A DNA stretch of 64,000 bases, from NCBI GenBank assembly GCA_947172415.1, contig OX359190.1, positions 7,564,001 through 7,628,000 of the forward strand, in the 5' to 3' direction. A program made the translations under genes and the position numbers. The notes beneath the pieces are model-generated. The model was not told where the DNA came from, ran no database searches, and saw only the letters and a list, made by a program, of their open reading frames with translations. Source of the DNA: Chondrosia reniformis. Taxonomy: Eukaryota > Porifera > Demospongiae > Chondrillida > Chondrillidae. Below, piece by piece: positions 2,852-55,800 of this stretch (position 1 is the first letter of the stretch; each line of letters opens with the position of its first letter).

Positions 2852-2950
2852 ATAGTATGTACATATGTATACACTGTACTCAGATTGAATTCTCTATATA
2901 TACCTATGTATATAAGACTTGGATCACTATTCAGTTCCTCCCAAAATATA

Positions 2951-22660: not shown

Positions 22661-23177
22661 CGTATACGTATATTAAGCAGAGTCAGAGGCAGATGACTGA
22701 AAATGCCAACTTCATGATCAAAGGCGACATACGAAACTCTATATATACAAGAATACAGTTTCTTCTATATAATTGATCATGAATTGTAAGCATGCAGGTG
22801 CAGTTTCGTGTATTCGTGTGTACATAAGGGTCCCATGAAGTGCTCCGGAAGAAAATTCTCAAGCAAGCCTCAAGTTTGCAGTCTGTATAGTTTCCGAAGC
22901 AAATTTTCAAGAAGTGCATAGTAAGTGGACATATAGGCCTATATATAGTAGCTGGCAGGTGCTTCGTGCATTTGTTGCAGCTGCTTGTCCAGGTAACTCG
23001 TATAGACGTCGATAATTATATCTCTCTCTTATTCGTGATCTAGCTCGTTTCATAACTGAAGGTAAACCAACAGATATTGTTGCATGAGCGTTAATTTATT
23101 GTAACCGACGTCGTCTTCATCATTGCCAACGTATACCTCTGCACTCCTTGTATATAGTTTAACTACTAAACACTACA
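22661..23177. other. 5' flank of the CatSper-like gene
   Basis: No gene is seen here. The region lies between the broken 5' end of the LINE and the CatSper start codon and presumably holds the promoter and 5' UTR. I could not identify a specific regulatory site. Confidence 0.4.
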
Positions 23178-29794: not shown

Positions 29795-32700
29795 TTAAAG
29801 GCAGTACTGTAAGTAATCTTTCCATATTCTATTGCACCTCAAGATATTCTCATTACCTGTAATTTTAAATTATGAAAAGTAAATCAGTTACAGTAACTGT
29901 GAATACATTACATGTATTATTTATATGTCTAGTCCATATAAATTAAGTAATTGGTGCATATATACATATACTTATTCTGTATACACATACCGACAACAAC
30001 AACACCACTTCTGGCTCTAGTTAGTGCAACACAGACATGATTTTCATTATCAACAATTCCAATATTCTCTCTTCTCCATGACAGATCAACCTTAATTTTT
30101 TGCAATTCTTCTGAAGGTACTGATCTTACAGTTGATATTATAACATAATCAAATTCTGTTCCTGTTTAAATATAATCATATCAATTTGTTATAATAACAG
30201 TCTCTAAATTTGCATTTAGCAAATATATGCATACACAAAATGTTATATATATGACTAGTAAATAACCTTGACTGGAATCAACTGTTTTCACTTTGTAAGT
30301 ATTAGTAGGTAAGTCCAAGCATTTCAACTTTTTCTCAATAAGTTGTTTCTGTTCTTGATAGAAAGTCAAAATACCTACATTTTGTTGGCATCTTGTACTA
30401 GATTGCTGTTTTAATTGCTTTTGTATTCCTCCCATCTGCTTTACCTAAAATTTATACACAAGTCAAAACTTTCCAACCTATCATGTACCCTATAAGTACC
30501 CAGTTTGCATGACCTACGTACATATACTATATATACATAGCTTCTAGAGTATATTCTGATCCTGTTTGTAGCTTAATTTAAGAATTATTTGTATTCTTAC
30601 AATGAATTCAGCTTCTTCCTCATTTGAGTAGGACTTATGAGATTCAACACAATTTCCTTCAATACGATGAAATAGAAAACCGGCTTTAGAGTCTATATCA
30701 ATGGATAGGTTTAGTAAACAAACAATATTAGAAACATTTCATGTATATATAATTATACTACAAATAAATATTAGAGGGGATGGTAGTATGCTAGTATATA
30801 CGTACGTATAGTGGGGACGGCCCAACATAATAGATGCCTTATTCAATCTATTATCAGATATCACCTCATAAATCAACACTGTAAAGATTTTGGTTTCATA
30901 TTTGATGTTATTCACTGGCCTACTCTCCTTGAACTGTCAAGTCCGTGTTCCAATGTGGTATATATTTCCATTATGGACACAATTTTTTGCTGTTAAACAA
31001 ATTAGCACAAACATGCAAAATTATGTGGATGCATACAACCTGGTAATCATTATTTCAGGACTGAAGCTCACAGGTTTAATTCCCACATGCTGAAACATTT
31101 TTTTAATCAGGATGCTTTCTCCTATGTAGACTAACTAGGCTAGCCTAAGGTTAATATTTGGTCACCAAAGGGTCTGAGCTAGGGGGAGAGATTCATTTCA
31201 CAGTGGTGGTTGTACTATGGTGATCACTATTTTGTTTACCTAGTTTCCCAGATGTACATATGTACGTATATATTAGTCACTGTTGGAAACACTGATTTTC
31301 CTACTTCTATATATCCTTAAATTTAAATATATATTTTTTATTTTAAAATAAGAGTCATTAGGTCAAGTAACATGTACACATATTATACCTTTCAGCAATT
31401 TGCTATATAAGGCAGAGGGAACATGTGCAATCTTCTTTGAGTCAGATTTTAGATTTCCGCCATAAAACCATTTTGAAGCAAACCGACAGATGCCCTCTCT
31501 CTAGTATATAAAAAACAGATCTTAATACCAAGTAAATACAGTTGAACCTGCTAAATTAAGTCAACTATGGGATATGATGGACGAACAGACTACATGTTTC
31601 ATATATGAACTGGGACTACTTTAAACAAGTGACTATTATATAAGAGAGGTTACCATTCTCACATGCAGGTTTCACTGTATATATAATTAAACACAAATGT
31701 TAGTGTTAATTATAAGCATTAAACTGTCACTGTATATAATACTGACCATTCTGTATTGGGTTTGCAACTGAAAAAACATGCTTCTATAATCTGCTGTAAG
31801 CAAAGTGGCATAACGCTCAAAAAGGGACCTCTTCAACTTGTCTTCCACTTTCTTACTGTGAACAGTAGGTCCCAATTGCTTATGATCACCCAGTAGGACA
31901 ACCTGCTGTGATATACTAATGGGAGCCATAGTTTCAGGCTCTGTACATCTGGAGGCCTCGTCAATTATACATTGCTCTGGTTTAAAGTATTTTCTAACTC
32001 GGTCACCAGCAGCCTCATTACAAGTGCAGAGAACTATGTCAAACTCTCCTTCCCTGACACAATCAGCCTCTGTAGCATAGACTAGCTTGTGATACAAAAG
32101 CCTTCTTTGACCTGAAGGTACTTCATTCCTCTCTTCACATTTAATAAATTCTTCATCAAGCTTTTTTAACTTGCTTGCATTTTTAGAGAACTGATTACGA
32201 ATAATGCAATGGAGTGAAATGTCTTCTAGATTTTTCTTTGGCTCTTTTCCTGATACAACATCTTCAAACACATGTTTATAGGCAGAAGGACCAGGATATA
32301 TCCTCCTTTCAATTCCCCTACTATAGATACGTAAAAGGCGTAACTTCTCTTTTCTAAAACTGAGCAGCATTTCTATATAGTATCAAAGATGTGGTAATTA
32401 AAAAGGTACAAAAGAAATTATTACAAAAGATACCTTTTATGTATGTAACAACCATTTGGCAGCAATGTTTACTGTATGCACATTTCCTTAAAGTTCTATT
32501 GACAAATAAAGCATTTTACTCTGAATCTAGTTGGCATTTGGAAGGCAGTAGTCGTTTTAATTTCACTTACCAGCCACAGCATCAACTGCATCATTAGTTG
32601 GTGCACAGTAAAGGACACATCTACAGGCTGTAGTTTTTGAAGACGTTTTAATCACATTCTGTCTATTCAGTAAACTAAAAGCATATGCAATATGTGCACC

Positions 32701-35700
32701 TGTAAGGCTTTTACCACAACCTATATATAAAAAAAGACAGTTGATAACGACAGGGTTTTATCATTATAAATGACATTAACAAAAGTAAACATTAAAGTTT
32801 CATGGGTATTATACAATATCACAGAGAAATATGACAAATTCAAAGATCATGTACAGATATTAAAACATTACTCGAAATTTACCTGGAGGTCCTTGAATTA
32901 CCAGAAACTTATTTTGCAAGGCTAAATATAATGCTTGGTGTTGGTCTTTACTCAAAGAGAGAAAACATGATCTTGGTGTGTCCCACATCATTTCATGGAA
33001 TGTATAATTATTCTTAAATTGGGTAATATCCCTTCTTCCTACATTATTTTAAAATTAAAAATTACACTATATACGTACATTCAAAATACTATAGTATGTG
33101 CCTAATAAAAATGTACTTTACTGGGTGTATATTTAGTAAAAGGGAGCAAACTGGGTGCATTAATAGCATATTTATGTTAACTGCAAATGTTTACTTCCAA
33201 ATTTTATCAATTAACTAGTGCATACATTCAAAATCTCACTGTTCACAACAAACATAGAGTATGCACGGGAACAGAGCACATGCAAGCAGGCAAAGATGTA
33301 TTTTTTGATAAATGTACACTTTGCCGTACTGCTGATGAAGAACATTTAGCTACTGGTTGTGTTGTGCACACTGCTCTCTTCAAGAAGAAGGTGTCTTTTC
33401 TTTCTGTGATTAGCCGCTTTCTCCTTCTCCTGCTGCTCTACAGAGGCTTTGCCCTTTGTAAGTACTTTTAAACATGTTCTTGTGGATTTATGTACATAAG
33501 CCTAGCTAATGATCATTTGCTATGTATATACGTACGTACATATATATTACTAGAAAATAAGTGTAAATAAGCCTAAATTTGTATATATAGTATACGTAGT
33601 TGTGGTGGATCTCTGGCCTTTAATAAGGCCATTGAATGGTTAGGCATAATGTTTTGTATCAGATAAGTTACAATTTCCCCCAGAAAACGGACTAGCTATA
33701 TGTAACTTACTATTTCTTTGCTGAATTGAATTAAGGTCTTTAAGATTTTCCAATTTCCCTAGTGCTATGGAATTAGCCAGATCTAGAGGATTCCTATTAT
33801 CTTTCTCCATCCTTTTAAGTGATTGATACACTCTCCTATTTTATAGATTAAAAATTTAAAAAAATCTTTTGGTATGTCACTTCTTAGCAAAATACAATAT
33901 TTGACTCACTTTACGGGGAGGTTAAGTGGTATTAATTGAATTTCACAGGTATACTTATTCTTTTTGGAAGATAATAGGTCCTTCATTAGTGGTGATATCC
34001 TAGCATTGTGTTCACCAAGGATCATAAATGAGACCTACGTATGGAATGCATTTACAGAATTATAAGTCAGCATGATCACTATATGAAAGCCTTCTAGCCT
34101 GTGAATTACGTACGTTTGCTGACACTTAAAATTAATTATATAGTAAGGAGTGCTACATATATAGAACGGTAGTGCTGTCTTTGTATTATAATACAATGTA
34201 TGTACATATAAAAATTCCCTATATAAATGTGTAAAAGCAATATCTACTGTATTTGTCTGAATAGAAGCCCCAGCTCCTATTTTGTTCCAGTCATTTTTGA
34301 CCAGCTTCAATTCAAGCTGGGCTTCTATATAATATTGGTGTTGGTATAGATATTCGCAGCACACTCCACAGTCTTCAACTCGACCGGTGTGTCGAATGGA
34401 GTGATTCTGCTGCTATTCAAGAGATTGGCTTCTATTCGAGCCCGGCTTCTATTCAAGACCCATCTTCTATTTTAAAAATAGCCTGGCTGACTCTCTGCCT
34501 CTAAACGAGACCCGGCCTTTATTTGAACCTGGCCTCTATACGGACAAAATTACAGTATGCTGATCGATATTCTTAGTTTAATAGTATACAGCATATGCAC
34601 TATGTACGTATGTATATGAGTCACACAACCTTTTATCAATACACATATACCTTAAGATCTTCATTTACTCTGTAAGGTATGGGATCCTCTGGAAGTAATT
34701 CATCAAGGGAATCTGATTCATCAGAATCAACTCCATCTTCACTTTTGCTCCTTCTTCGAATTGTTTGGACATTCTTCACTACCATGTGAAATACTGCCCT
34801 GGCATAGCCATCAATATCATGAGTTTCTAATAGTTTCTTATACTTTTTGTAAACAGTAGGCTCTTCTCTTTCAGAAACTTGAATTTCATATCTAGCACAA
34901 ATAAGGGTGCCTTTTTCAAAAGGAAAAAATTCTTGTTTTGTTAGTACAAATTCCCTTGGAAGCACTGTTGTAATATCACCAACAGGCTCATATATTTCTT
35001 CCGAAAGACATGCTCTAGGAATTTGGAATTCCTCAAATTCTAGCAAAACATCTGTAAGACATAAAAACTTATTGTCTTTAGAATCAGGTGCTAACTCAGT
35101 TTTTCGAATACTGCTAGCAGCAGCCTCTGATAGCACTACATCTTGCCAAAAGCTATGATACTCTCCTATTAAAGACCATTTGTCTTTTGCCTCTAATGAT
35201 GTAACCCCAGAAGTAAAAGATACCTCTGGATTCAGGTGATGCTGAAGGCATAGTCTAAGATTTGGTGTTAGCTCAACCAACTGTACTTTTGGAGTAAGAA
35301 TGTATCCTGTAGGATCAGCTGTTATCCAGACTGTTACATTAGAGGGTGACTGCAAAAATATCTTGCTTCGCAACATTATTAAAGGTGCCTGCTGAAAGTC
35401 TTTAGGATCTTTTAGTAAGTGCCCATCTTGGCCAAGTTCTGAGGTATACTTTCTAGAGGGTAATTCATCCTGAATTTCAGACCATTTGGAACTAATTGGT
35501 AGCCTAGGCTTATGGCCAGGTCTAGTGGACAAAACATCTGACAGCTGCTTTTCCAAACTAACAGCACCTTCATTTGATTCACTTGTAGAAAAAGCTACAG
35601 CCTGTTTCCAAGTATCTGCAGAGATATTTGTGGTGCTACAAAAATAGGTGATTGGCCATTCCAATTTATGCAATGTATCATGTTCATCTGGTGCAAAGAC

Positions 35701-38700
35701 AGCTACAGACATGTCTTTCTTTCCTGCTTTTACTTTCTGCCCCTTAGCCATGAACTGCATATCAGTAAGAACACGACAAGCACCCCTTATAGAAGTTACC
35801 TTTGCACAATGCCAAAGCTCAGGTGAAACATTTTGTCCAATTTCATAATGCTTAATTTTCTCCACAGGAATATCATAGTACTTCTTAATGGCAAAGCTAA
35901 TTTCAATGGAAGCATTTTCTCCAGATCTTACCAAATAAATCATAGCCTTAGTAGCAACTGAAGACTCCTGCACTTTGCAGGCAAGTTCAACCAATGATAA
36001 ATCTTCTTCATATTTCTTTGATCGTTGATTAGCATTTTTACAGTTGTGGCAGAATTTTTTCAGCCTAAGGGATCTGTCAAGGGCTCCATGTTCAACTTTA
36101 TTGTATATAGTTTTCAAAAGAAATTTCTGAACAAGAATATCAAATACTGATTCAAATGGGCTAGTAAAGGAAGTCAATGTACTTTGAAGCCTATGATGAC
36201 AGGGATGCAATCGTTTAAGTGACTCCAAAATTTTTTTCTCAGAAGCTTCAGTTTCATGCTTGATGTTAGCAAGCTTAACAGTCACATATTCCTCATCAAA
36301 AGATTCCCTATGTAGAATATTAAAAAATGCACCCACTTCAGCAAAGTGCTTAGTTGACAGCAGTGTATTTTTGGCATCCCTAAAATTCTGGTTCCTCAGA
36401 CATTTTAGAAGCTGCTGAAGGATCTGTGTATCTATTAAAAGACCACCCATATTGTCAGTGATATGCTCTGGTTCACAATGTAGCCAAGAAAACTGTGGCA
36501 ACACAGTTAGATTAGGGAACAAGTACTTGACTTTGTTAAGTACTGCCTTTTTAGGGGGACGTTCAATCTTCAATAATACTTGTCTTGGGCTAGACAAAGC
36601 TATCTTTTTAGCAGCCTCTGAGTTAGCAAGCAACAAAAATTCTTGGAAAATCAAAAAAGCTTTCTGATGAACAGTAGTTGTAATTGTAGTTGTATCATAA
36701 ATTTTGTCTTCTACACGCTGTTGTTTTAGGTTTTTAGCCATCAAGTAAAGCTTTCTGAGCATATCAGCAACACTAGTACTGTCTTTGTGCTTTCTTGTAT
36801 TAGAGTTATCTAATATATTTTCTACTTCTATCATGGAAAGTTGCTCTTGGCACTGAAAATTTGATTCCATAAAATTTGTACTCTCAGGTAAGATTTTGTC
36901 ATTTTCTGAAAAGGAAGCAGAAAAGGTTATAACTCTACTATTGCACTTTTTTGAAAATGAAAGTTTTTTCACAACCTCAACTGGCAATACTGGATAATAT
37001 ATCTTTTCATTGGTCAGTGTTTTAGAGGAAATAACTCTAAAGCTTGTCCAAAGGTCAAATTTATCAAGGTCCTCTGAGCAAGTAATGGCTGATGCTGCAT
37101 TGGTTATATGAATTTGGACTCTATTGAAACCATCTTTCTTGGTTAATGAAAAGCCACAGCTAGAATATCCTTCCTTAGATCTAATGGCAATGCCACTGGT
37201 CTGAAAGCTTTTGGGAGCTGGATCAACATGCACCATATCAAAGGCAGCTTCTTTATTAGGTACCATGTACTGTATGTTTAAAATGTATCTAGCACGTTTT
37301 AAGGAAGTTCCTCTGGGTAATATCCCAACAACAGCGCCAACTGGAAAATTCTCTTCTCTAGGCCAATAAAATGGTTTAACCACAAACAAGAGGTCTTTAG
37401 CAAATTCTAGGAGGAGGGTGTTAATAATTTTTGGAACTTGGTTACTTCCAAGAGAGTTGATGTCAAAACAAACCACATCTTTCCGTGGCTTTTGGAGATA
37501 TTTTTTTAAATTATCAGGATTGCTTTGCATACCTCCTCCACCCCTATTTTCAAGCAAGTACTCTGCTATATGTGGTAAATTAACTATTCTTGGACTTTTA
37601 CCATCAACTGGTATCAACCAATTTCCGTTCTTTATATCTGCCGTACATATCTGTGGAAGCAATTCTCCCTGATTCTCTACATCAGAGACATAGAACCTCC
37701 TTCCTAATTTGCTTGAAGTTCTCTCAGCAACTTTTACTAATGCGCCATCAAAGGCTCCCCTTCTATTAGAAACTCCATAGATATCATACGTATTTTGAAT
37801 AAATACTCTTTTAGGGCCTTTATTTTCACACCTTTTGGCCTCAACTGGAAAGGCAAGACAATGATTTAGTGCTACCTGCTCTAGGTAGCATAAGAAACCA
37901 TCTTGAGAGTCTTCTTTTCGCTCTGATTCACCTTTGGGGATGGGTGAACTGACAGACCAGCCCCTATCATTACCTAGTTCATCCAGTCCTAGCTTAATGT
38001 TTTTGTCCTTCAAAGCCTCATTATAACCAGCCAGTATGCTATCTTCATCATCAATCACTTTGAAATTGTCCCGATGTTGTATCAGTTTTTCTTTCAGGTC
38101 AATTGTATCAAATATATCTTCTTCCAATTTTAATGTTATTTCCCTGAGCTTATCAGAATTACGTTTCTTGTTCACTGGGTCTGCAAGGACAACTGACTTA
38201 GTTTCCCAACAACGATGCAAGTATGCAAGCCAGCACCGTTTAAGCTGATTTCCTTCAATTTTTCTCTTTTCAATTTCCATTAACCTAAAAGGGTTCCCAA
38301 CTGCAACAATCAAGCTAGATGATCTTGTAATAACTGTGTCAAACACTGCTGGATCACATAAACTTTTTGTTACATCAATTTCTTGAAAATTCTTATCAAC
38401 TGGTCCACTTGTACAAATAAATATTGCTTTGTATTCACGTCCTAGAAAAATGATTTATGGTACACATGATTTATGGTACACATGATTTATGGTACGGTGC
38501 CTAAGATTGATCTAAAAACATACACATATGCAAACTTAAGTACTCATTGTAGAATGTAAAACAAATAATCCTTTGATGAAGATGATAAAGACACATTTTA
38601 ACTTCTCTTACTTTATTGGCACAAGGCCATACATTTCAAAGAGCTATAAAACTCTGTAACAATAATTCAAAATGGTTTAAATTTAAAGTCGGATTTATGG

Positions 38701-41700
38701 AGTGCATCGTTAACCTACAAGATTAAAGAGTGCTTGTAAGCACTTGTGGTGTATATACAGTACATAAAATTAGTAGTGTTAATTATTAATCCCTTACACT
38801 AACACAAGTTCTTTTTCCTACTTAGTGGCTGTGGTAGTAGGTTGTACACTAGCCCAGGGCTGATCTAAAGGCCATGTACAATAAATAATGTGGCAAGAAT
38901 CACAGAGCAGAAAGACAGGAGTGGTGTATAAGATCACCTGTAATGTTTATCTATAGAAGTTTATGTGGGAGAGAGACTGAGAGGACATTGAACCAGCATA
39001 GGAAGCCCATGCAACCACAGTATATATTAACTTGGAAGGTACTACAGAAGAGAAACATGGTTCTGAAAGTGAAGAACTTTGACATCCAGAATGGAAAGAC
39101 ATGAACCCTCTCCCCCATGGTCTGGAACTCCTTCCTAAAGCCACTTTACTTATAGCCACAAAACCTATAACATTATTTGTTACCCACTATCATTCAACTA
39201 CACAATAATATTTATCACCTCATTTAAGCAATCATACATTGTCCATCTTTGCTGTATATGGTCTGTCTCACATGTATTAAAGACATATATGAGGTGGAAC
39301 ATCCTACAATTGATTTTTGACTGATTCTTTATGTGATCAGTGTTGATTGATTTTCGTATAAATTAACTCAATACTAACCTACCTTTATGTACATGTGCAT
39401 ACATGTATAAACACAAAACAAAAGTGACATTACATAGTCAATAAAACTTTTAAATTTGAAAGTGAGTCTAAATTATATATACATATATGCATGTCAACAT
39501 ATGTACACACCTTGGATATCGTAGGCTGGAACAATTGTTACATTCTTTAACTCTGGAAACCTTTTAAATACTAATTGCTGCCACATTTTTTTCTAAAATG
39601 TCAGGAGGTATGTATGTACTTATTATTCAAGATATACGTACGTACATGTACTAAAATTTAGTACTTTTCTAAATTAAATAGTAACTTTAAAATTAAATAG
39701 TTAATAATCCCATAAACCCATCAATATATATGTACTATACAAATTGTAATTACAAACTCACCTGAAGCTTAGTTGGAAATATTACACATAAAGAACTATC
39801 ATTATGCCTGCCCCACTCAATTGTTGGCCACTGATTTCGACAAAATTTAACTAGCTGTATCACAATGTGAAGTTCTTTCCAGGCCTCCATCATAAATATT
39901 TTATCTGCATGCCAAGAGCACACTGGAACTTCATCCAAAGAGGAGGCAATAAAATGAAGTGGCTGTTTCAAAGTTGGATGAAGTAAAGCTTTTGATTTAG
40001 CCTGTAGAAAAAAAGAAATGATAGTATGTATATACACATTATATAATTAATACATGCACAATTATAAACGTATACATTCATATATGTTAAGATACAAGTG
40101 CATACTGGATACTGCAAGAATATGTAATAATTATATATATACTCTGCCCCTAGGCTTTTCAGCGTTTACTGAGTTATCAGCGGATATCGCATTGTATAAC
40201 TATAATAAGAGGCCAAAGTGCCTCTTGTTATAGTTATACAACGGATGTGGAATATAATTTGCCTTGGTTGCCCCAGCAACGGAGTGTATGACTATAATTG
40301 TATAACCAAAATGATAATTGCCTACCAATGAGGACATGTTACATGTGCTAGAGAATGTCAGAATGCACACTCAACTCGAAGATACATAAGTCACATACGT
40401 AGCTCTACGTACATATACGTATATATGACATTTCTGCTTTGGCATGATGGACTATTCCACTGATGTAAATCTATGTGTTTTGACTTACAAAATGATTGCC
40501 CATTGCCATACATGTCTATATATATAATATGCACACTATAGGGTTTATTTGTTCACTAGGTTAAGTATGAAACATTCACCTCTAGAGTATTGTCATAGAA
40601 AAGACTGCTAGGAAGTCTCAGTACTCCAGGATGTGACCTATAATTAGTGAGCAATACTGCTTTAGCACTCTCAAAAGACTTCTTTCCCTTATATGTCTCC
40701 ATGAGACGTTCCAGAAGGGAAATTGACAAGCCCATTTTTCTGGGAGTATCACCAAGTACTGTTGTCCTAGGACCAACCTAACAGAAACATATAAATGTAA
40801 AGTCAGTAACTATCTGTTAATTAGATTATGGTATGCACAGTAAACTATATGTATGTACGTATAAGCTTCCTGACATGCATATAATGATCTTTCAACAAAT
40901 AATGTATATCCATCCGTTTAACACATGTATATAAGCTGTACTAAACCACTAAAATAAATGACCTGATATATATATATATACCAAACTTCTTGATCAGTGT
41001 AGTTAAGAAACACTAATTGGGTCATTGGGCAATCGTCTATGATACAATAATAGTATCTAATGCAAAACAATTCCAATTTTATTCATTCTAAAATATAGTC
41101 CAATTACGTACTTGAAAATCATGCATTTTCTAAAAAGGAAATTTAAAGTGGATCTGTTTGTTTTTACTTACAGATTAGCTGTCATACCTGCATATGATCC
41201 CCAGCAATTACAAACTTTGTTTCTTCAGCAGCTAATAAGAAGGCAGCTACATTTTCTGGTTCACGTGTTTGAGCCCCTTCATCAATCAAAACATATTTAA
41301 AATGACCAGGCTGCATAGCAACAGTGGTAGCCAATTTAAGAAAGGTTAAAAATGTAGTTATCATCAAACGACATTTATTCAAACTTTCTGTCCCAATCTG
41401 AAAATCATTGACAAATGCCTCAAATTTTCTCTTATGGCTTGTAATTATATTAAAACTTGAAATTAATCTAATTATAGCATCTTCTTTCAAACCAAACAGT
41501 TTATTCTCCTCGAGCCTCTGAATGTATTCATCTGCTGTTTGCCTGTGGTGTGTAATAATCAAAACACGAGCTTTCTGATAAAACTGTAATATATGATAAG
41601 CAGCAGAGGCAAGCAATCTGGTTTTTCCTGTCCCAAAAGGACCAGTAATTAGAAAGGGTAAGGTGCATGGATTTGAGAATAGCTTTTCTAATGCTGGAAG

Positions 41701-44700
41701 TTGATATTCTTCATCAGGTTTTAGATTATCTGGAAATTGTTTTTGGTTCAATCGAATATTACCACGTTTTACACTAGCCTCTTTCTCACCAGGCAACAGT
41801 TTCTTAAGAGCTATTTCAGGTAGTTTTTCAATTGACTTCCGAAGACTCTGAAAATATGAAATTTTCAAGATAAATTTTGCTTTTACCGTAAGTGTCTGCT
41901 GCAATGACTTCGACACAGCATACCACCTATTAAACCCAATGAGGACCTTTGTAGTTTCTTTGTCTCCATGTGGTACAGGCATTGAAAATATGTTACCCCG
42001 ACAAGTTCCAAGTTTTTCAAATTCCAAAATTACTGCAGAAGCAGCTTGCCTTACAAAGTCTCCAGCTGCTGGTTGCATTTCTAAATATCCAAACCAGTCA
42101 TGGTTACTAGGTTTATTTTCATATTCATACTTGGTGAACTTGTAGCTCTTGTTATTTCTAAGCAATACAGACAACAGTAAATGTAACAGAAAGCATGTAA
42201 TAGTACATAGTCAATTTAAATAATCAAATAAAATCTATGAAAGATAAATTACTTTGTTAGCCTACTGCAATGTTCTTCTTCTTCTAAATCAATCATTTTA
42301 AGAAACATTTCCCTATAATTTTCCCTAGTTAAGGTGACTTTGGGTATATTGCTTTCTTTTATCTCTTTCTGTGAAATTAAAAGTGAAAGTAACGAATCAT
42401 GATCATATACGTATATGTACGTACCTGCATGTACTCTATATGTTTCAATAGAAAATTTACATGCATTACCTTGTATGAGAGCCTACTGTCCTTGTATGAT
42501 AAAACTGCTTTAGTTTTTCTTAACAGTGCAACCTAAGAATAGAATTATCAGATTTGACATTCAGAAACAAGATTACATTTATTGTTGTCCTTCATATCAT
42601 TGAATGAAAATGATGAATGATGATGTGATGAAAATCTAATATACATGAGGCAAGTCATATACATACGTATGTACGTACGTACATACGTATGTACATGCAT
42701 GTATACTGTAAGTCTTAGAAAGCCATTTTGATGAGACTTTAGTCTCCCAACGAAGAAAATACTTTATTCAATTGGTTAATTAATGAGGCATAACACATAG
42801 CCTTTACTAGCCATTGTGCAATAAAGTATATTCTGTTATTAATAAAATTGTGGGCTATATACGTATATTTACTACTTAACACCTCTTAATGTTAACATTG
42901 ACATGAAGCATTCTTACTGGTTTACAATTTGCAGAGAGCATTCCACTTCTAATCCACAAGTCCCAAAGTTCCTCTTCTTCCTTTGAATGGGGAGAAGTAC
43001 AGAAGGATGCTGAGGTACAGTCCAGAACAGAGTGCATTGCCATCACTTGTGTATCTTCAGCTTTAGGTATCCTGATTGTTACCAAATCCTTATTTATATA
43101 ATCAATACAAACAATTTTCTCAAGAAAATGATTTCCCTCGAGGCACCTCTTCTTGAAGAGCTCTTTCAAACCTATCCATCTGCAATCAATGCAATAGGGT
43201 CGAATCTCCTCCCTATACTTCCCTATGTAAAAATGTGTACAATTCTTCATGTAAATCATTATCAGGAATATTTCTTGTAAAATAGGACCAAATTATGATG
43301 CATATAATACATATAGGGGCCAGATCTCATCTAGAGGTTGGTATACGTACATACATTTATAGTCATCGTCCTTATTATTTTCTTTGACTTCAGAGAGGGG
43401 CTGCCTATAGCAGCCCTTAAACAAATTACATATATGTACGTATGTACAACTAAGATTTACTGTGGTTAAGGGGGTTAATTAGCTGATTTAGTGAAGGTAT
43501 ATGATATGATAAAATATGGAAAATCACTGGAATTAGTATTATACCAAACCTATTTATCAATACACGTATGCCTTTGCACAGGCATTGTGTAATTAATATA
43601 TCTAACTCTCTTTTTTCATTGTGGGCACTCATAGGACCGTAACCTCCACCTTCACTTGTTATAAAACCGCAATTATTTCACTTGTTGCGGATTATGAAGC
43701 TCGCTAAAAGTGTACCACACTTGTGAGCCCTTCCTACAGCTCTTCATTGATTTTTACCGTTTTGAATGACTGGTAGCCACATCAATAAGGACTTTGGTAT
43801 CCCACACAAGATTAAACCTTGTTTGCTTCAATGGTAATAGAATTCTAGTCATATTATAAGATTTAATACACTTATTTGGCTGAAATATTAATGATATGGA
43901 GTAGTTGTTGGGATCACATTTAGTTAATTGATGATTATTGAGCTGTAGCAACAGGAATATTCTTTAAAATTGAAAGTTTCGACCCTAAGGTCTTCATCAG
44001 CAATAAAAAATAACTTATTTGACTATACAGGAATTTCAATTTTGCAATAAATACAGTGGTGATTAAAGATACGTAGCCATAGTATGTGCAGATATCTGAT
44101 TAATTTTGAAAAAATATACGTACGTACGTAAGTACACATTAACTTACCTGACCAAAAGTGATATTCAACAAGTGTATGTGGAAAATTACACAAGGAACCA
44201 TCAGGACAGTTAGGATGGACACAGAGTGTTGATAGCATTTGCACAGCTGGCTTCATTCTTGCAGGAAAATAAGCATTATTCCACTTTATGACCTTCAAGT
44301 AAACAGTATCCAGTGATCAGATAAGGTGTAATATGCAAAACTAGCTACCAAAATCTTTATTTATACCTATGAAGCAGTCACCCATGGGAGCTAGGATAAC
44401 AGTAGTTGTCACTGCTAAACTTAGCAATAACAGACTGTTTTCCTTGTAAGCCAATGATTTTGTTAATTTTTGTGGTCCTTAGGTGGACAAGTGTTGTTAA
44501 ATGCCATGGTGACTGCCTCCAAAATTTAAAGATTAATTGATTGAGTTTTGAGGCTAGCAAACTAAATCTTTACCAATCTTAAGGACAAGAAAGATGCTAA
44601 ATATATGAGAACAGGCAGTTTTGATCCTATATCTACTACTAAATACTAATGCAATTAATTAGGTATACTGTACATGTATGTTAATGACAAATGTATCAAA

Positions 44701-47700
44701 GTAAAGCCATTAATTTTGCAAGAAAAAAGGGGACTTAAATCCAGAGTCCACTGAATTTTTCATTTTAGTACAAGTCATAGGATCAGTTAGTAGTTCTGGG
44801 CTTTTAGTACATGAAAATGTCATGGCCATGTTGCAATATATAGTAACAGGTTATACACTTGCATTTTATTAACTAGTTCTTATGTGTATGCTCTTACCAC
44901 TCCACTTAAGTGTTTTCCATTGCTGCACCTTTCATTATTATTCCACAAATAATTCATGGATAGTTTCTGGAAGCATTGTGAACAAACTATACCCAAATTT
45001 TCTAAAAATAAAAATAAAAATCCATGTGAAAGGTACAATTGCAGCTCTATATATGTAGATTCTACTAACCAATATCAAAAGAATCGTCCAAATCCTTTCC
45101 AGGAACATCAGCATCATTATATATAAAACTATCGGGATCACTTGGAAAGTTCAATTCAATTTCATCTACATCTGGCTCTTGAAGTTGAAGTTGCATATTG
45201 GAATAACTCTGATCAAAATCCATTATCTCACTGATTGAATCAGTTTCAGGGAATGCAGTATCTGAGAGCGCAAGATTTTCATCATCCTAAATATTCATAA
45301 AATATACATTTGTGTATGTGTATGTATACTTATGTACCAGTACATTGCCAAAATTAGATTATTAAAGAAACAGAATTAACAGTAATTAATCCTGCTAGAG
45401 CATAAAAGGAAGGAGCAAGTGAATGATCAAGATAGTGCAGACATTATTTTTATAACATTAACAGCTTGACTAACCATAATTTATATCTACAGTGGTTTCC
45501 TACAGTCTGTACGCATAGGCAAATCAATTAATGGATATCCTTTTTAAAATGAATGAAGTTGTGTCTATGGTTTATTTACTATATACAGTAGTTTAAATGA
45601 GTAATATATTCAATGTAAACATATACGTATGCGTGTGTGTTTGTTTGTAGAAAATTATTATAATATATGTATGCATACCATGTGAATGCATGTGCATGTA
45701 TTCATATACATATTAAAGTATTGAATGACAGTTGACATAAAATGTTACTGTAACTATAGTACATAGACATAGATCCTAGCTTATTTATTCATCAAGACAG
45801 ACAATTTACCATTTTCTGAAATCCTGAATTTGAACATATCGCCAATGTAGGTGTTACCTCTGGTAAAGGCATCTCCTGAGTTGTTAAAATTGAATGGGCC
45901 TCTGGCAGAGCAGATAAAAATGGGCTAACTATTTGTGAAGTTATAGAGAATGGTGTACCCATTTCAGGAGCAGTAAACAGTGGAGGTTCAATTTCTGGAA
46001 CTGAAAGTGGAGCACTAATGGGTAATGTTGGTGTTCCATTGATTGTGTTAGCAACTGACATTGAGGTAACCCTTGCAGCAGGTGACAGGGTGGTAACCCT
46101 TGCCGTAGCAGGTGACAGGGTGGTAACCCTTGCCGTAGCAGGTGACAGGGTGGTAACCCTTGCCGTAGCAGGTGACAGGGTGGTAACCCTTGCCGTAGCA
46201 GGTGACAGGGTGGTAACCCTTGCCGGAACAGATGACAGGGTGGTAACCCTTGCCGTAGCAGGTGACAGGGTGGTAACCCTTGCCGTAGCAGGTGACAGGG
46301 TGGTAACCCTTGCCGTAGCAGGTGACAGGGTGGTAACCCTTGCCGTAGCAGGTGACAGGGTGGTAACCCTTGCCGTAGCAGGTGACAGGGTGGTAACCCT
46401 TGCCGTAGCAGGTGACAGGGTGGTAACCCTTGCCGTAGCAGGTGACAGGGTGGTAACCCTTGCCGTAGCAGGTGACAGGGTGGTAACCCTTGCCGTAGCA
46501 GGTGACAGGGTGGTAATCCTTGCCGTAGCAGGTGACAGGGTGGTAATCCTTGCCGTAGCAGGTGACAGGGTGGTAACCCTTGCCGTAGCAGGTGACAGGG
46601 TGGTAACCCTTGCCGTAGCAGGTGACAGGGTGGTAACCCTTGCTGGAGCAGGTGACAGTGCCATTTTTGGAATAGCTGAGATTTCCATAACCTGTAATTT
46701 AAGGTTGATAAAACCGGGATAGTCATTACATAAGACACTTCAATGTTAACAATGCTTACCTGACTACTTTCTAATTCAATTTTTTTGTTACGAGGCACTT
46801 CTATAAATATCACAAACAGGTTTATATATCAAATCTTTAAGTATGTTGCATGTCTACATGCATACATCTTCACCAAAAATGTGTTCAAATTTGGTAAACT
46901 TAACACATTACATTTATAGTAAGAGTTACAATTGATAAGACTACTTATACAATGTAATATTTCCATGTTTCATATAAGTTCTATGTGAGCAGGTTATCAG
47001 CACATTACAAGTTATGTATCTACACTGCTCAAAGAAGGATGACTATCCAGCCATCACGTAAATCCTCCCCCACAGACCAAATGGTCACAGAAAGTCTAGG
47101 GCAACCAAACCTAGCCTAGCCTAGTTAGTCCATAAGGGAGAAAACAGCCTGAGGAAAAGTGGACTTCTGCGGGATTTCCATGCTGCCTGGTTCCTCACCT
47201 AATGGCTTTCCAACTTTAAAAAATGGATCAGCAGATTCTTTTTTCCAAAGAGAATATGTGCTATTTTCATAATCCTGCATGTCATTTAACATGAAGTCAT
47301 GAATTTACATATATCAGTCCCCTATACTCTAAAATGTACATAGCACCTTAATATATTAAATATTTCTACACACACTTCAACACCTTACTTCTAGCAGTCC
47401 AGGATCAACTAATGAAATCAGTTGCTTGCTAGGAGCCTGCAGGAAAAGATCACAGACTAAGGATTGTTAAGTGTTACATTAAACTCTATTAATATAACAA
47501 TTGCAATCAATTTGAAAGTTAAAGAATTAAGAATATATATACATATTCAAAAGGAGTTCAAAAGGTTAGTTATTATGATAGAAATCAAACTAACCTTGAA
47601 ACACAAAAGACGATTTTGTTCTTGCAAGGAGTTACGAATAAAAGCTTTAATGGAGTCTCCTTGAAGTGAAAGTTTAAAGTAATCATCTATTTGAATACTT

Positions 47701-50700
47701 ATGATTCCATTCTCAAATAACATCCAAAACTGGTTTGGACACTGGTTGACAATTTTGACAGCTTCACCACTTGAAATACTCCAAGTAAGAGTTGTATTTG
47801 ATGCATGATTAAAATGCAGTGATTCATAATCTATGCAAAATTCTGTGCCAAGTAAACTCTCTATTTCCTTAAATCCAGTAAGTGTGACTGTAAAATTACA
47901 TGTGATTTTAAGAATACTATCATCCAATAACCAATCGCTCTGAGTTTTAAGAGGAAAAAAGGAAGAATTAGTATGCTTCAGCAGACTATTTTTCCAGCTG
48001 AAAAATGCATTTAAGCATTTCTGATAACGGCACATTGAAAGATGAATTTCATTCAGCAGCAGTGGCTCTAAAATTTGATCAACCTGCTTAAGTATTTGTG
48101 ACAAAAGATTACAATCCTGCCATCTCTTTGCAACCATTTCACTTCCTAGAATACTAATTATACTTTCAAGTTTTTTTCCATCAATAACTCCTAAAAGAGA
48201 ATAAATATTGTATTATAGATATTTAATCTTAATTACTTCATTTAAAAGTACTTACTTAAGGTCTTCTTTATTGCATCTAGAGTGCAGTTATACATCTGAA
48301 TAATAGTAGCACCTGGATTTGATGAATGTTGAAGTTGTAATAACCATTTTCTGATGCTAGAATCAGCCTTATCCAGTAGCAGGACCTGTACTGTTGTAGG
48401 CTCAAGAGACATGTTTCTCCCAACATACTTGTTTGCTTCATTGGCCTATATAAATCAAGAACTACTGTCAAATTAATTTTTATATATGAACACACTATTA
48501 ACTACAAAATATAATTATTTGACATGTCATAATATTTAGTAAGATCAAACCAATTTTCTTTGGACAAATAATGCATGTCAAGACAAAATTAAAAGTTGCA
48601 AAATTTTACCCGCCTGGAAATTACGAGGAAATCATGTGCATTCTACAAAGCTTAGCTTATTACATCAATGAGAAACATGCCAGTAGGAAACGTATGCAGA
48701 GAGAAGGAAAAACTAAAGCAGATTCATGAAGCATTTGTACTGGCTTAACTACCTTTCACTTTAAGATACATAGGTTTAGATCTACTGTATATAAACATCT
48801 CCTTTTCTTCAATAAAGTAAATATATGTCTATATATGTCTACATGAGAGGATAATATCAATTTAGATATATTACGTATATATGAGATAGTAATTGAATCC
48901 ATTATGAGATATTCTGATGAGCCAACTAAATTAGTCTTTGAATGGTTATTTTTTACTATCAATCTAACAGGGTTTTATGTCATATTTTTGTAGAGTGATT
49001 TCCTGATGAAGTCAATGTGGGGGGCAAGACATTGCAGCTAATCATTTGATTCTTGCCTTGAGGTGCATTCTTTGTCCAAAAAAAGATGGCACTTACACTA
49101 TTAACATACCGTGTCAGTTTGACACTTGATTGGTTGCCTAACTAAAATGGATGAGCCATGGCCATATTCTGCAGGAAAAAATCTACACATTAAATTAAGT
49201 CTAAGCATACATATATATACTAAATATACTGTCACCTAGCAATTATACCATGTATAAAAATAACCTTTCTTTGTGTGAAGAAAGTGGATGGCTTGCAAAA
49301 CACTCTGATTGCTGACTTCCTTAGGATGTACGAATGGCTGTATACATGTATACGTATATATATATATGTATATATAAGTATATTCAAATATACAGCTATT
49401 TTATAGAGGAGCTAGTCAATTAAATTCTGGAAACTTCAGTTGCAGGAAGAATGTATGTGTCTCTAAAATATTCAGTATACAATTATCTAAAATTCCACAT
49501 TTAAAGATATATATATATACTGCACATCTATGTGACTGAAAATTTGCAATATACGTAAATAACAATCTATGTTTATACTACTTGTATAAACCATCCATAA
49601 AAGTCTTAAATGAAATACTTGATGCCTCCTCCCCATTCACATACATGTATAATACAACTATAAACTTACAATGTCAATCAAAGCATTGTAGCTCAAAGAT
49701 AGATTCTAAGGTGCAGAAATGACAGAAGAAAATATATATCGATAGTTATATGTTTACATATAGCCATTCTTATATGTCCACTTTAAAATATAGATACAGA
49801 AGAAAAAAACACTTTGAATCTATGTACCTCTGAAACCTTGAGATGAATTCCAGTCAGAAGGGCATCTTTAATATACTGTGAAGCATTTTTCCAGTTAATA
49901 TCCGCTTGTATTACTCCTGGGATTTCAATTCTAATGACTCGCAGATGCAACATCACCCAAAAGCTGCGAGGTTTGAATATCCAATCCGTCAGAAATTTTA
50001 TATATATCTTTTTAATGTAGAAGGTGATTGTGGTACTGCGAGTAGACCTAGCACTTCCCCAATGAATTGATTCTCTTGGTATGCCTGCACCTTCTACAAG
50101 AATATCCCTCCATAGATCCATACAACCCTTGCAGGTAAGCTCATTAATACTGTCGGTAACTGTTATATTAACAGCAACAGCATCAAAAGAAGCAATTTGA
50201 GAATTATTAGCTCGCAAAGATTCTAGCTTTTTCTTTGTGCTGATTACAAGACGGTAATCATGTAAATGAGCTTCATAATGTAGCAGTATGGACTTAAATT
50301 GGACATATGCCTGGGATTTTGAATCTAGGGAATTCAGCATATTATTTAAGCATGATGTGTTATCCCAAGAGGTATGTATACGTAAATACTTGCAAAGTTC
50401 ATCAACAGACTGCTTAGCTTCAACTTCCTTATGTTTTATATCATCTTCAATTAAATTATTGTCAAAGAGCAAGCCAATACTTGACTTAATTTGTGGAAGG
50501 TATGACTTGATCACTTGAAGTATTTGTTGGTATGTAGATAAATATAGCATCTTTAAAATTGCTTTGGCATCTTTTCTTTCTAAATGTCCATGTAATCCAC
50601 AACTGTAGCTGTCATGTAAATCATAACTTTGCATATTAGAAGCTATAGCCTCATTAGGTTCTTGGAAACGTAGTCCTGCATGTGTTAATAGACAAAATGT

Positions 50701-51753
50701 ATATCTTGGACATTTGAAACAACTGCAATAAATCATACGTACATATACAGTGAAAATCAATGTATGTATATCTTTCCGTATACAACAGAATCAGCAAATG
50801 AAAACAATATAAGGGGCTGCCCCTAAAAAAAACAAATATTTCATCACTAACTACTCAGTTAGAGTATCTAGTTTTACATACTGTATATATACATTTGTTA
50901 TATCTTATATACAACAGCATCATGCTGTACGTACTAGTTGATGCTGTAGTAAGAACTGCCTAGCCTATATAAATGGATTGATTGATAAATTGATTCACTC
51001 AGGTATGCACACCGTGACAGATGCAACCAGGGGGGTATGAGAGTATGCCACCCCACGGGGAATGCCGCCACTATTGGACATTTATTAAAAATGGTGGAAA
51101 CGGTCTTGTTAGTTAAAATATTTTGATTTTTACCTCGTGAGAACACCATACCCTTACTCCTAAGAATCTAAGTGCCTTATTATCATGTATTCCATATTGT
51201 TAACGTAATGGCATAGTACTGCTACAGAACGTTGGGGGGCTTCATAAATTCATAAATATTGAGGGAGCAAGTGCCCCCACTGCCCCCCCACCTGGTTCCG
51301 CCACCTATCTATGTACTGTACATGTAGGAACATACGTATATACCTGTTTAGTAGTATTTAAATTATATATATAAGTGCATGTGTATGCACTGAATATACA
51401 ACAAAATTAATTACATAAATGTGAATACCTAAAGAAGATTGAAGTGGGTGTTCTGGTAACAAATTGGCCTGGATATGCCTTAAAACATCCATGTGCTTAG
51501 GACACTCAGACAAAGTATTTTCCATAAGCTTAAAAATTGACTTCAGGACTTCCATAGTTCCAGTTTTAATAATATGAAGTAGAAAGACTTTGTTTGCTGC
51601 CTTTGTTGAAGGACTAGCATCAATCTCTTCCATAACTTCAAGATTAATGACTTCATCACTGAAGAGGTCTGATGAAATGGACTTCACATTCAAATTTTTT
51701 TCTAAATATGCAAAGTGAGCTTGCATTAAACTTTTGAAGTCCTTGTGTGCCAT
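29795..51753 (-). CDS. Giant CARD - zinc finger - helicase - RNB - helicase protein, HELZ2-like
   Basis: Twenty-nine exons chain in phase to about 3,694 residues. In transcript order: 51429-51753, 49828-50675, 48256-48445, 47595-48190, 47389-47436, 47199-47274, 46760-46800, 45810-46691, 45070-45286, 44898-45001, 44148-44292, 42918-43273, 42470-42532, 42253-42368, 41188-42157, 40580-40777, 39762-40001, 39511-39592, 34651-38441, 33910-34034, 33711-33835, 32883-33038, 32571-32720, 31747-32372, 31389-31500, 30601-30692, 30267-30444, 29991-30161, 29795-29856. Residues 1-108 look like a CARD (YLEKNLNVKSISSDLF, KVFLLHIIKTGTMEVL). Next come helical modules, a 10-residue repeat (about 720-920), and C/H clusters (CVHPNCPDGSLCNFPH, CTSASFCTSPH). 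Helicase 1 has GPFGTGKT, IDEGAQ and AGDHMQ. RNB-like part about 2040-2760. Helicase 2 has GPPGCGKS, IDEAS, GDHKQLGP and VALTRARS. The order matches HELZ2; the CARD is extra. Likely cytoplasmic RNA helicase; immune role inferred. Confidence 0.88.
33187..33471 (+). CDS. Unrecognised coding-like fragment inside a helicase-gene intron
   Basis: This plus-strand frame lies in the intron 33039-33710 of the minus-strand helicase gene. It has a Cys-containing stretch (DKCTLCRTADEEHLATGC) followed by a hydrophobic run, and a GTGTCT donor-like site after KKK. The opposite strand also has a tidy charged frame (EQQEKEKAANHRKKRHLLL) ending in a stop. Either could be an old exon or transposon coding remnant; I cannot name a family or choose a strand firmly. 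Confidence 0.2.
   Translation: MFTSKFYQLTSAYIQNLTVHNKHRVCTGTEHMQAGKDVFFDKCTLCRTADEEHLATGCVVHTALFKKKVSFLSVISRFLLLLLLYRGFALCKYF
34245..34557. mobile_element. MITE with TACTGTA termini
   Basis: Left end TACTGTATTTGTCTG and right end CGGACAAAATTACAGTA are inverted and nearly complementary. The inside holds many degenerate TTCTATTCGAGCCCGGC-like short repeats and no coding sequence. It sits in the intron after the giant exon of the helicase gene (34035-34650). Confidence 0.65.
40193..40240. repeat. Palindromic MITE-like hairpin
   Basis: Arms 40193-40213 and 40220-40240 pair at 20 of 21 positions around a 6-base loop. The surrounding 40165-40300 is an inverted relative of 24240-24370. It is intronic in the helicase gene. 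Confidence 0.65.
42687..42790. repeat. 104-bp repeat identical to 54191-54294
   Basis: The segment from GTATGTACATGCATG to AATTAATGAGGCA is identical, base for base by my reading, to 54191-54294 in the DDB2 gene. It lies in an intron of the helicase gene. It includes a GAGACTTTAGTCTC palindrome. The identity implies a recent copying event. Confidence 0.8.
43385..43420. repeat. Fragment of the AGGGGCTGCC MITE family
   Basis: The segment reads AGAGGGGCTGCC, a short loop, then AGCAGCCCTT, the same type of hairpin as at 20374-20396. It is short and intronic in the helicase gene. Confidence 0.45.
43976..44000 (-). repeat. Hammerhead-like core of the foldback family
   Basis: The minus strand reads CTGATGA, a GACC/GGTC stem with a short loop, then GAAAC. 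It is the same core as 27328-27359. No cleavage site could be assigned. It is intronic in the helicase gene. Confidence 0.5.
46066..46650 (-). repeat. Coding minisatellite, 30 bp x about 19, in the helicase gene
   Basis: A 30-bp unit (GGTGACAGGGTGGTAACCCT plus TGCCGTAGCA on the plus strand) repeats from 46081 to 46650 with only a few changed units, for example near 46230 and 46510-46550. In the gene's frame it encodes PATARVTTLS about 19 times. The unit is a multiple of three without stops, so other frames on both strands stay open as well. The near-identity suggests recent expansion and probable length variation among individuals. Thr/Ser/Pro-rich spacers of this kind are usually flexible linkers. 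Confidence 0.95.
50795..50850 (-). repeat. Fragment of the AGGGGCTGCC MITE family
   Basis: The reverse complement shares TTTTTTAGGGG, CAGCCCCTTATATTG and the following TTTTCATTTGC with 20368-20420. It is intronic, between helicase-gene exons 1 and 2. Confidence 0.5.
50990..51310. repeat. Probable transposon remnant in helicase-gene intron 1
   Basis: The two ends are GC-richer than the surroundings, with CAACCAGGGGGGTATGAGAG near the left and CCCCCCACCTGGTTCCGCC near the right. These form a partial inverted pair (CCAGG...CCTGG). It has no coding capacity. Confidence 0.35.
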
Positions 51754-52868: not shown

Positions 52869-55800
52869 ATGTCTACTTTGGAAGTGAATTCGCCGCTTGT
52901 AACTTCTTCGTCACCAACCTTTGGTCGTAATAAAATCAGGTAGCCAACTTATGTTTTTCTTTTCAAAATAACTTTACAAAAAGATGTAGCTATTCTATAC
53001 CAATCGATCAACCAACCAATCAATCATTTTACAGCACCCTAAGGCGCTAGGACACAGAAAAAGGGGGTCCAATGTAGCACTAGTATATCATAAATAAAAA
53101 GTTAAACCATAATACTTAATAAGTTTAAAACGTATATTGGGGAATAAAAAAACTCGAACTACGTATTAATTCGATAATGAGATATCTGATCCCAAAACTG
53201 GCCTGGTCGACAATAAAATAGTTTAACAACTTATAGTGGGTCCCACTGTATAGGGAGTGTGAAAAAACGTTACTTATTATCTTCTCTTACATCCAAATTA
53301 ACTTACTTAATACACAAGTCACTTACTATTTCACACTAAGGTGTGAAGCAGGATGTCGAACCAAGACCCTGTCTATATTTTTGTCAAATTAAAAATATAC
53401 TAGACATTCACAAGGGTTCAAAGTAAACGGCTTAAACTTTAATGATGTCATAAGGATAAAAGTTAATAGTGACTACCGGAAGTAAGAATGAAAGCTAAAA
53501 AATGGCGAAGCTCAAACTGGAACTCGTCACTAAACGGGAACACATGCTATTCCGTACTGGTAATCACAACCGACTCTCAAACGTTGGTATTTCGGTTAAG
53601 TTAGATATATATGGGTTTATTTCCATGGTTTTTCATTCTGTTTTCATTGCCCTCATACAATGAATTCCTCTTTGCAGGATTTTAGTGATTACTTTATTGA
53701 GCAGGCTCCCCAATGGACTGTGCACGAGAGAATAGCTCCGTTCTCACGTCGCACCACCTGCATAGACTGGCACCCGACCTACATGGATGTTCTTGCAGTC
53801 AGCTCGCATGGAGGAGACATATATGTTTGGAACCTGCATGACAAACTCAAGGAAATTATGCACCAAGGAGTGAGGTGGAACTTGTTATATTGTTGTGATT
53901 TTGGAAACCTATGCACAAGCATAGATCTTATATACTTATGTAGCATGAGTATATAGGAAAATCTAAGATACCATTAAAGATTTTCCTACATGCTATGCCT
54001 ATTCTGTAAAAGAGCCTATAGGGGAACTAAACCTGAAGAGAGCTTTGGATGAAGATACAGGAGTCTTTTCTTCCTTCTTTTCCCTTCTTTCATCTTCTTC
54101 TCCACTGGGCCAGACAGCTGTTTCCACCCTTCATCAGTGATCCTGGGAGTCTTTGTCTTTTTCTTTATCTTGATCTTCTGTGAATCCTTGGTATGTACAT
54201 GCATGTATACTGTAAGTCTTAGAAAGCCATTTTGATGAGACTTTAGTCTCCCAACGAAGAAAATACTTTATTCAATTGGTTAATTAATGAGGCAATCATC
54301 AATCAATCATCCTATATGTAAGATCTATGGTACAAGTGCCATGCACAGAAAAATATATATACTACATGCACAATCAGTCAAATCTGATGACCATTTTATT
54401 ATGCTATAATTTCTCCAGAAAAGAGAAGTAACATTATGAAAGGGGGATGATTTTGTCATACTGAAAACCTAATAGATGCTGTATAAAGGGATATTTGTAA
54501 CTTGTTACATTGTTATAATTAATGACTATGCTCTAGTAGTACTGCAGTAAATGTGGAGAAATACTTTATAGTCTGGTTTGTCAGACTAGAGACACTACTG
54601 AAAGTAATATTCACTTGGATTCAAGTGTGTTTATGGAATTGCATACACATTTGTGGTCTACAGATACAATATAGCACATACATATGTAATCTATTGGTAT
54701 ACATTCAGAAATATGTAATCCTAATCTAGCTGATTTTGTTTGATATTGTAGCAAGGACCCGGTGGCTCAATCACTGAAATGAAGTTTCACCCTTGCATGC
54801 CAAACTCTATATATGCCACATCTGTAAATGGAACATTTTGTCTTTATGATCTGGAAGGTAGACACTCTCAAGTCTTTCTTGATACTCTGGATTGGAGGTT
54901 AGCTGGACATTATTTTTAAACAGTCCAATGTATTTGTGTCAAACTTCAAGGATAGGTAATGTTACCTTTTTCAATTTTTTTCCATAATATTATGAATGTT
55001 AGATTTTGGTATTGCACTTTGAGTATATCACAAAGCCACCATTTCATGTTTGCTGGTACAAGTTATGGAGATGGCACACTCCTAGACAAGCATGGTGCTA
55101 AGGTTAGGACTTTTGTATTCAGAGGACATGCAGGCAATCTAGGCAGTGTTGTAATACAATATGAAAAATATCCTTATAGCGATGATTCTTTCAATTCCAA
55201 CCAAATAGTTAGCATTCAACAATATCCTTATTAACTACACTTAATGTTTGGCATTGCACAAGTACAATTAAAACAAACATCACTTTATATATATACGTAT
55301 ATGTAGCTATTTAAGTATAATACATATATCTTACACAATATATTAAGTAGATTAGAGTACAGAATATTTCTTGTAATCAGAATGTTTAGATTATGCCAAG
55401 TGTCCATCTTATCTGACTGGATGTGCTTGACTTAGCATTTTTAGACTGATATACTAAAACTGTATATTATGTTTATACATACACGTAAGAGTGTAAGAGT
55501 GTAAGAGAGTCTCACCCAAAATGTTTGAGTTATGACAAAGCTTGTATGTTTTTCTGGATGCTATTTAGATATGTACTCATAAATTTCACAAGAATAAGAT
55601 CCAGCATGCTGAGTTTGCACCCTACTGTGAGGAACTGCTGATAACGGCTTCCAATGATAGAACCATCAAATTATGGGATATACGCACCATCAGTAGTAAC
55701 AAACTACAACCTTTAACTACTTTCCAAACTCCAGCAGTTACTAATTCAGGTCTGAAGCATCATACGTACATTTGAGATATTATATGTATATATGTATAAT

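Follow-up and report, generated by a model that had tools for sequence, protein, structure and literature searches.

Introduction

CARD-helicase sensing is usually told as a single invention, that of the RIG-I-like receptors (RLRs), whose helicase core belongs to superfamily 2 (SF2). HELZ2, a 3'-5' exoribonuclease of vertebrates and sponges, comprises in this order a zinc-finger region, a superfamily 1 (SF1) helicase (helicase 1), an RNB domain and a second helicase (helicase 2). The gene considered here lies in a stretch of 64,000 nucleotides, hereafter the window, of the sponge Chondrosia reniformis (chromosome 2, 7564001-7628000, of a 117,379,552-base genome in 15 contigs) and, as read from its sequence, encodes a protein of the same order to which an N-terminal CARD and two TRADD-N-like modules are added and from which the RNB aspartates have been lost. 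Compared with RIG-I and MDA5, its helicases match AAA_11/AAA_12 and are UPF1-like SF1, not SF2, so that it would not be an RLR and the likeness would be convergent at most.

A third group of described proteins is the expanded theme of Death-like plus TRADD-N units with variable C-termini in Amphimedon (Kaur et al., 2021, PMC8195603), where proteins with a TRADD-N of the NCOA6 clade likewise present one or several N-terminal death folds, a TRADD-N and a variable C-terminal module, namely ankyrin, SH3-LRR, kinase, MATH, SH2, PDZ, caspase, PNPase or HD, and another TRADD-N clade includes DDX60, Mov10 and RLR-like fusions (PMC8195603). In the window gene, the C-terminal module is a whole HELZ2; neither HELZ2 nor RNB appears in the main text of that paper (PMC8195603). 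A fusion of CARD and HELZ2 was likewise not found at the level of titles and abstract beginnings in full-text searches, subscription papers being mostly beyond reach, which agrees with a first-pass annotation of the window that knew of none.

Gene model and HELZ2 organisation

The published assembly of Chondrosia reniformis amounts to 117.37 Mb in 14 chromosomes plus the mitochondrion, with a quality value (QV) of 69.8 (PMC12181767). The curated gene model chains 29 exons from 51753 to 29795 with consistent phases and a single stop, the terminal codon, and an in-frame stop immediately precedes the start codon. Start and stop are exactly those first proposed, as is the number of 29 phase-chained exons, the protein being of 3,661 residues and not about 3,694. 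All introns are GT-AG because this was a precondition of the exon-chaining method. The best model of a first gene-finder run had 21 exons, 19 of them identical to final ones among the 29; later runs, trained on the exons of this first model, gave 24 and 30 exons, with 24/29 final exons exact in each. Exons 11, 25 and 26 and the end of exon 13 are manual additions from sequence reading and the HELZ2 pattern, and alternative exons at 43879, 43404 and 41129 were discarded since they broke or padded the HELZ2 alignment.

Zinc fingers, an AAA_11 helicase 1, an RNB-like exon and an AAA_11/AAA_12 helicase 2 follow one another in the HELZ2 order, as previously annotated. HELZ2-like proteins align with the window protein from around residue 1049 onward, those of Amphimedon and Dysidea being the closest named relatives of this part, and the zinc-finger region aligns with chromosome 9 as well. 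The fingers were judged CCCH-type from visual inspection and from an alignment with HELZ2-like proteins; of exons 10-12, exon 12 was scanned with Pfam, which returned no zinc-finger match. Both helicases have intact motifs, i.e., GPFGTGKT, DEGA, GDHMQVGP and YDIQGREY in helicase 1, and GPPGCGKS, DEAS, GDHKQLGP, VDSSQGTEF and VALTRA in helicase 2. Presenting HELZ2 as a vertebrate protein, as the annotation did, proved too narrow, the protein search having also returned it from sponges, amphioxus, a hemichordate, echinoderms and a bivalve. In the sponge Dysidea avara, two HELZ2-annotated genes are reported to be less strongly expressed after exposure to the symbionts of another sponge than after exposure to seawater microbes (PMC11229196).

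The N-terminal CARD

On profile searches and fold prediction taken together, exon 1, earlier noted as CARD-like and containing both the NLNV and LLHIIKTGT stretches, encodes a true CARD. In the family of 13 Chondrosia sequences to which it belongs, 12 match Pfam CARD at E<=0.5 (best 2.1e-7). The predicted structure of residues 1-108 is a six-helix bundle with a split first helix (helices 6-12, 14-20, 23-32, 38-46, 50-64, 67-79 and 86-98; pLDDT 83.4), and the nearest solved folds are the CARDs of caspase-9, RIG-I and Apaf-1. In a VIA structure comparison, 47 of 50 rows have a CARD or a CARD-bearing protein in their titles, the exceptions being the designed 7vty, the ubiquitin complex 4nqk and 6k9f ("unknow protein 4"). 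Entries for Apaf-1, for a CARD-CARD disk and for apoptosomes fill the top eight Foldseek rows, at E 0.04-0.09.

Exon 1 has 127 additional matches in the genome at E<=1e-3. Dozens of exons of this family are clustered on chromosome 2 (0.6-3.5 Mb), where five of six examined loci display by eye a COR-like open reading frame (ORF) beside the CARD, the one locus scanned giving a sub-threshold COR-A match (E 0.0033); the cluster perhaps consists of CARD-Roco genes. On chromosome 13 (5.312-5.323 Mb), CARD and exon-2-like units are tandemly duplicated together with an ORF of 630 residues, which has a multi-membrane-spanning look and no Pfam match at 0.01.

A single gene

The annotation of the locus as one gene is supported by sequence comparison with a collinear paralogue and with public single ORFs. 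The paralogue, on chromosome 9 from 5,310,799 on, has the same module order as the window gene, with collinear tblastn counterparts of exon 4, exons 10-12, 14 and 15-19 (28-47% identity per piece); an exon-3-like piece and a tandem repeat linker differing from that of the window were recognised by eye. Its CARD was detected by profile at 5.1e-12 in one frame, with the last helix at 1.4e-5 in another. By eye, the region directly upstream (5305600-5309900) contains a receptor gene that is SRCR-like and has a membrane span.

A search of public proteins with residues 1060-2500 gave 110 HELZ2 and HELZ homologues, only one of which, P0002, carries a CARD by the family profile (E 1.6e-16; next best 0.14); a search from P0002 added P0111, with an N-terminal CARD (E 4.7e-15) and 92% identity to P0002 over the searched region, and P0112, which combines helicase 1 with a CARD placed at its C-terminus (E 1e-5). 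The CARD of this family is thus present in 3 of the 112 proteins listed. P0002 (2,560 amino acids on 8,076 bp) and P0111 (2,571 on 8,108 bp), both hypothetical proteins from JGI, are single ORFs comprising CARD, helicase 1 and RNB region; single ORFs on contigs of about 8.1 kb are what a transcript would give, so that these contigs are probably transcripts. Like the window gene, they combine an N-terminal CARD with a HELZ2 devoid of RNB aspartates, at about 28-30% identity to it outside the CARD. A motif scan detected no helicase-2 motif I in P0002 and P0111, the scan being weak, as the same patterns also missed motifs in P0001. Between P0002 and P0111, the half from CARD to helicase 1 is nearly identical and the second half strongly diverged, for which paralogues, gene conversion or chimaeric assembly are candidates. 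A ZU5/FIIND-like identity for the middle of P0112, guessed by eye, received no support from Pfam or PDB and was dropped.

Loss of the RNB catalytic aspartates

RNB enzymes depend for catalysis on a D-x5-D-x-D-D motif, the columns of which were placed with the genome's own DIS3-like protein in an alignment of 20 hand-chosen rows. The aspartates are missing in the four rows with an N-terminal CARD (window, chromosome 9, P0002 and P0111), whereas positions 1, 3 and 4 are kept in 16/16 of the remaining rows, the columns reading RSC- in the window gene versus D-x-DD in the others. A second alignment again shows no aspartate at these columns in the N-terminal-CARD rows, nor in a chromosome 5 copy (C5a) that it adds; own-genome HELZ2-like copies on chromosomes 10 and 6 retain theirs. 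Scanning all 112 proteins anywhere past residue 600 located a D-x7-DD pattern in 97, and the 15 proteins lacking it are 11 without PF00773 together with P0002, P0111, P0112, which has no RNB match at all, and P0082. In human HELZ2, changing three positions abolished the 3'-5' RNase activity (PMC9839780); by spacing, these correspond to the lost positions 1, 3 and 4. Judged on sequence, the window protein is HELZ2-derived and not a HELZ2 exoribonuclease. Given the lost aspartates, a sensor or scaffold is favoured over an RNase effector.

Phylogeny and kinase-bearing relatives

A tree was built from the helicase-1 exon with 26 rows, which took in 6 of the 14 HELZ2-like places of the genome and proteins selected by hand from the 112. 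The window gene, the chromosome 9 paralogue, P0002, P0111, P0112 and two chromosome 5 copies (C5a and C5b) form a clade supported at 99/97 (95/96 in a tree with one row fewer). This clade is nested among sponge sequences, inside a 100/99 clade to which Amphimedon, Dysidea, two further copies from Chondrosia and two JGI proteins also belong. The inner clade thus holds five CARD-bearing rows and two with a kinase upstream, and RNB motif loss is common to the five members whose RNB was read; the motif loss assigned to C5b derives from helicase 1, where it is nearly identical to C5a. The kinase ORFs lie upstream on the same strand (C5:8001499-8002338 and C5:8036936-8037775; Pfam E 5.3e-26 for one) and, from their position, would be part of the same genes as the HELZ2 copies. 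The CARD profile gave no outstanding match in the 8 to 9 kb of sequence upstream of C5a and of the copy at C13:2164294, nor, among the matches listed, any within 190 kb of the RNB places on chromosomes 10, 6 and 5.

TRADD-N-like modules and linkers

Between the CARD and the HELZ2 part (residues ~110-650), the sequence is read as two modules, each helical plus TRADD-N-like, which the first-pass annotation had missed, as it had the repeat linker of exon 8 and the loss of the RNB aspartates (Table 1). The first half of exon 2 is all-helical in the predicted model, with pLDDT about 90 over much of it, and matches the CARD-family profile weakly (E 8e-4 in a 6-sequence search); in a search of the same size, exon 4 matches positions 88-280 of the exon-2 family profile at E 2.1e-9. 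Exon 4 has a counterpart on chromosome 9, that of exon 3 being recognisable there by eye only. The Pfam TRADD-N profile matches neither exon 2 nor exon 4 of the window, and 3 of 14 relatives match it below cut-off (best 0.0043). The N-terminal 708 residues found no match at E<=1e-3 among 5.8 billion proteins, and when the exon-2 family or its TRADD-N part was searched by profile against the PDB, each returned one uninformative row (E 0.7 and 1, respectively). DUF3336, GcnA_N and DUF348 were set aside as identities for this family, being sub-threshold, although the last two match more members than NCOA6_TRADD-N does. In exon 8, Pfam matches to NAD_binding_7, T2SS-T3SS_pil_N, Kelch_6 and Inv-AAD were attributed to the 30-bp tandem repeat and discarded.

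Table 1. Features of the CARD-HELZ2 gene, in window coordinates.
Feature	Position	Strand	Basis
Whole gene, 29 exons, 3,661 amino acids	29795..51753	-	Curated exon chain and gene-finder runs
Exon 1, N-terminal CARD, residues 1-108	51430..51753	-	
Helical module in the first half of exon 2, candidate for a second, divergent death fold	50203..50595	-	Predicted model and profile
Exon 2 second half, TRADD-N-like alpha+beta module	49846..50193	-	
Exons 3-4, second, diverged helical + TRADD-N-like module	47595..48445	-	Exon-2 family profile, chromosome 9 counterpart
Exon 8, Ser/Thr/Pro-rich linker encoded in frame by a 30-bp tandem repeat (97% matches over 19.9 copies)	46065..46658	-	
Exon 9, acidic linker	45070..45286	-	Exon chain and gene-finder
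HELZ2 zinc-finger region in exons 10-12, rich in Cys/His and of CCCH type	42918..45001	-	By eye and alignments
Helicase 1, UPF1-like SF1, exon 15 to start of exon 19	38400..42157	-	AAA_11 E 2.9e-14
RNB-like domain without catalytic aspartates	36109..37143	-	PF00773 E 9.7e-16; motif columns in two alignments
Helicase 2, exons 22-29	29795..33038	-	AAA_11 and AAA_12 matches

Proposed function and alternative explanations

We consider it rather probable that the gene encodes an RNA sensor derived from HELZ2, in which RNase catalysis would have been exchanged for death-fold signalling. In this protein, the CARD is followed by two helical + TRADD-N-like modules, the repeat linker, CCCH-type zinc fingers, a UPF1-like helicase 1, a dead RNB and helicase 2. 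ATP-dependent binding of viral or transposon RNA by the zinc fingers, helicases and dead RNB would cluster the protein, and the clustered CARDs, with the TRADD-N-like modules assisting, would recruit a caspase or another CARD adaptor and so set off signalling for death or immunity. The protein would thus act in the manner of RIG-I or MDA5 on a HELZ2 chassis without RNase catalysis, the signalling output being what we infer from its domains. More tentatively, and at slightly less than even chance, sponges may have turned the HELZ2 decay machine into a second RIG-I-like receptor family, the branch without RNase serving as a platform for N- or C-terminal CARDs or for kinases, independently of the SF2 RLR lineage. 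If true, the SF1 HELZ2 clade of an early-branching animal would be an independent route to a CARD-helicase circuit, and a single chain would connect RNA decay with transposon control and death-fold signalling; the association of RNB loss with CARD is a specific prediction for sponge genomes.

Several results weigh against this reading. Exon 1 remains sub-threshold for Pfam CARD (E 3.9e-4, 20.8-21.6 bits for a curated cut-off of 23.9), Foldseek gave no row at E<=0.001 with its model, and Pfam detects no CARD in P0002, P0111 or P0112, where the assignment depends on the 13-sequence Chondrosia profile. The chromosome 9 CARD exon (5310799-5311100) contains a one-base frame change with no space for an intron, and the CARD of that copy may therefore be broken. 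The TRADD-N identity is sub-threshold and not unique: among 16 members of the exon-2 family, NCOA6_TRADD-N is matched by two (best 0.026) and GcnA_N and DUF348 by three each (best 0.12 and 0.15), the first such module of chromosome 9 reaches only E 0.02 with the family profile and 0.0097, below cut-off, with Pfam NCOA6_TRADD-N, and none was found in P0002. The five CARD rows do not group together in the best tree, and none of its 200 bootstrap trees unites them (8% in an earlier tree); a single CARD origin was not rejected (p-AU 0.115). Finally, the loss of the RNase pattern is not exclusive to the clade, since P0082, a bivalve HELZ2 outside it, also lacks D-x7-DD, none being found upon re-examination.

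Among other explanations, the protein could be a direct restriction factor, whose helicases would strip or remodel viral or transposon ribonucleoproteins, the CARD and TRADD-N-like modules serving only assembly or localisation without a death signal. Human HELZ2 limits LINE-1 mainly through its helicases, which matter more than the RNase, loss of the latter having a minor effect (PMC9839780), and the window gene retains the motifs of both helicases; we nonetheless regard this as unlikely, the clade being repeatedly paired with signalling domains, i.e., N-terminal CARD, C-terminal CARD (P0112) and upstream kinase (C5a and C5b). A negative regulator or decoy, i.e., a dead HELZ2 paralogue competing with active HELZ2s for RNA or capping CARD assemblies, would fit the lost aspartates beside the intact ones of chromosomes 10 and 6 but is improbable, as helicase motifs and CARD fold are kept and no mark of a loss-only protein is seen.

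If exon 8 is extended past its donor, a stop occurs near 45792, closely followed by AATAAA, as would be expected were a CARD/TRADD-N gene ending near 45.8 kb wrongly joined to a HELZ2 gene starting at exon 9; the collinear order on chromosome 9, the single ORFs of P0002 and P0111 and the in-phase intron of 68 bp between exons 9 and 10 make such a junction very improbable. Less probable still is a decaying gene or pseudogene: the RNB active site is lost and the chromosome 9 copy has its CARD frame change, but 3,661 codons over 29 exons are free of stops, helicase motifs are kept, and the RNB loss is shared across the clade members read, as above.

Other features of the window

The forward strand carries a tandem pair of almost identical ORFs without introns, each about 1,450 codons long (2795-7147 and 9502-13857), with by eye a long extracellular-looking part and several membrane spans; the first has no Pfam match at 0.01, and a stop near 12478 breaks the second. 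On the reverse strand (21047-22672), two adjacent ORFs resemble pieces of a non-LTR retrotransposon reverse transcriptase, with YADD seen by eye, the larger giving no Pfam match at 0.01. Both under Pfam cut-offs, a beta-propeller-like exon (53600-53956) and a Sulfotransfer_3-like gene (58938-61260) occur on the forward strand.

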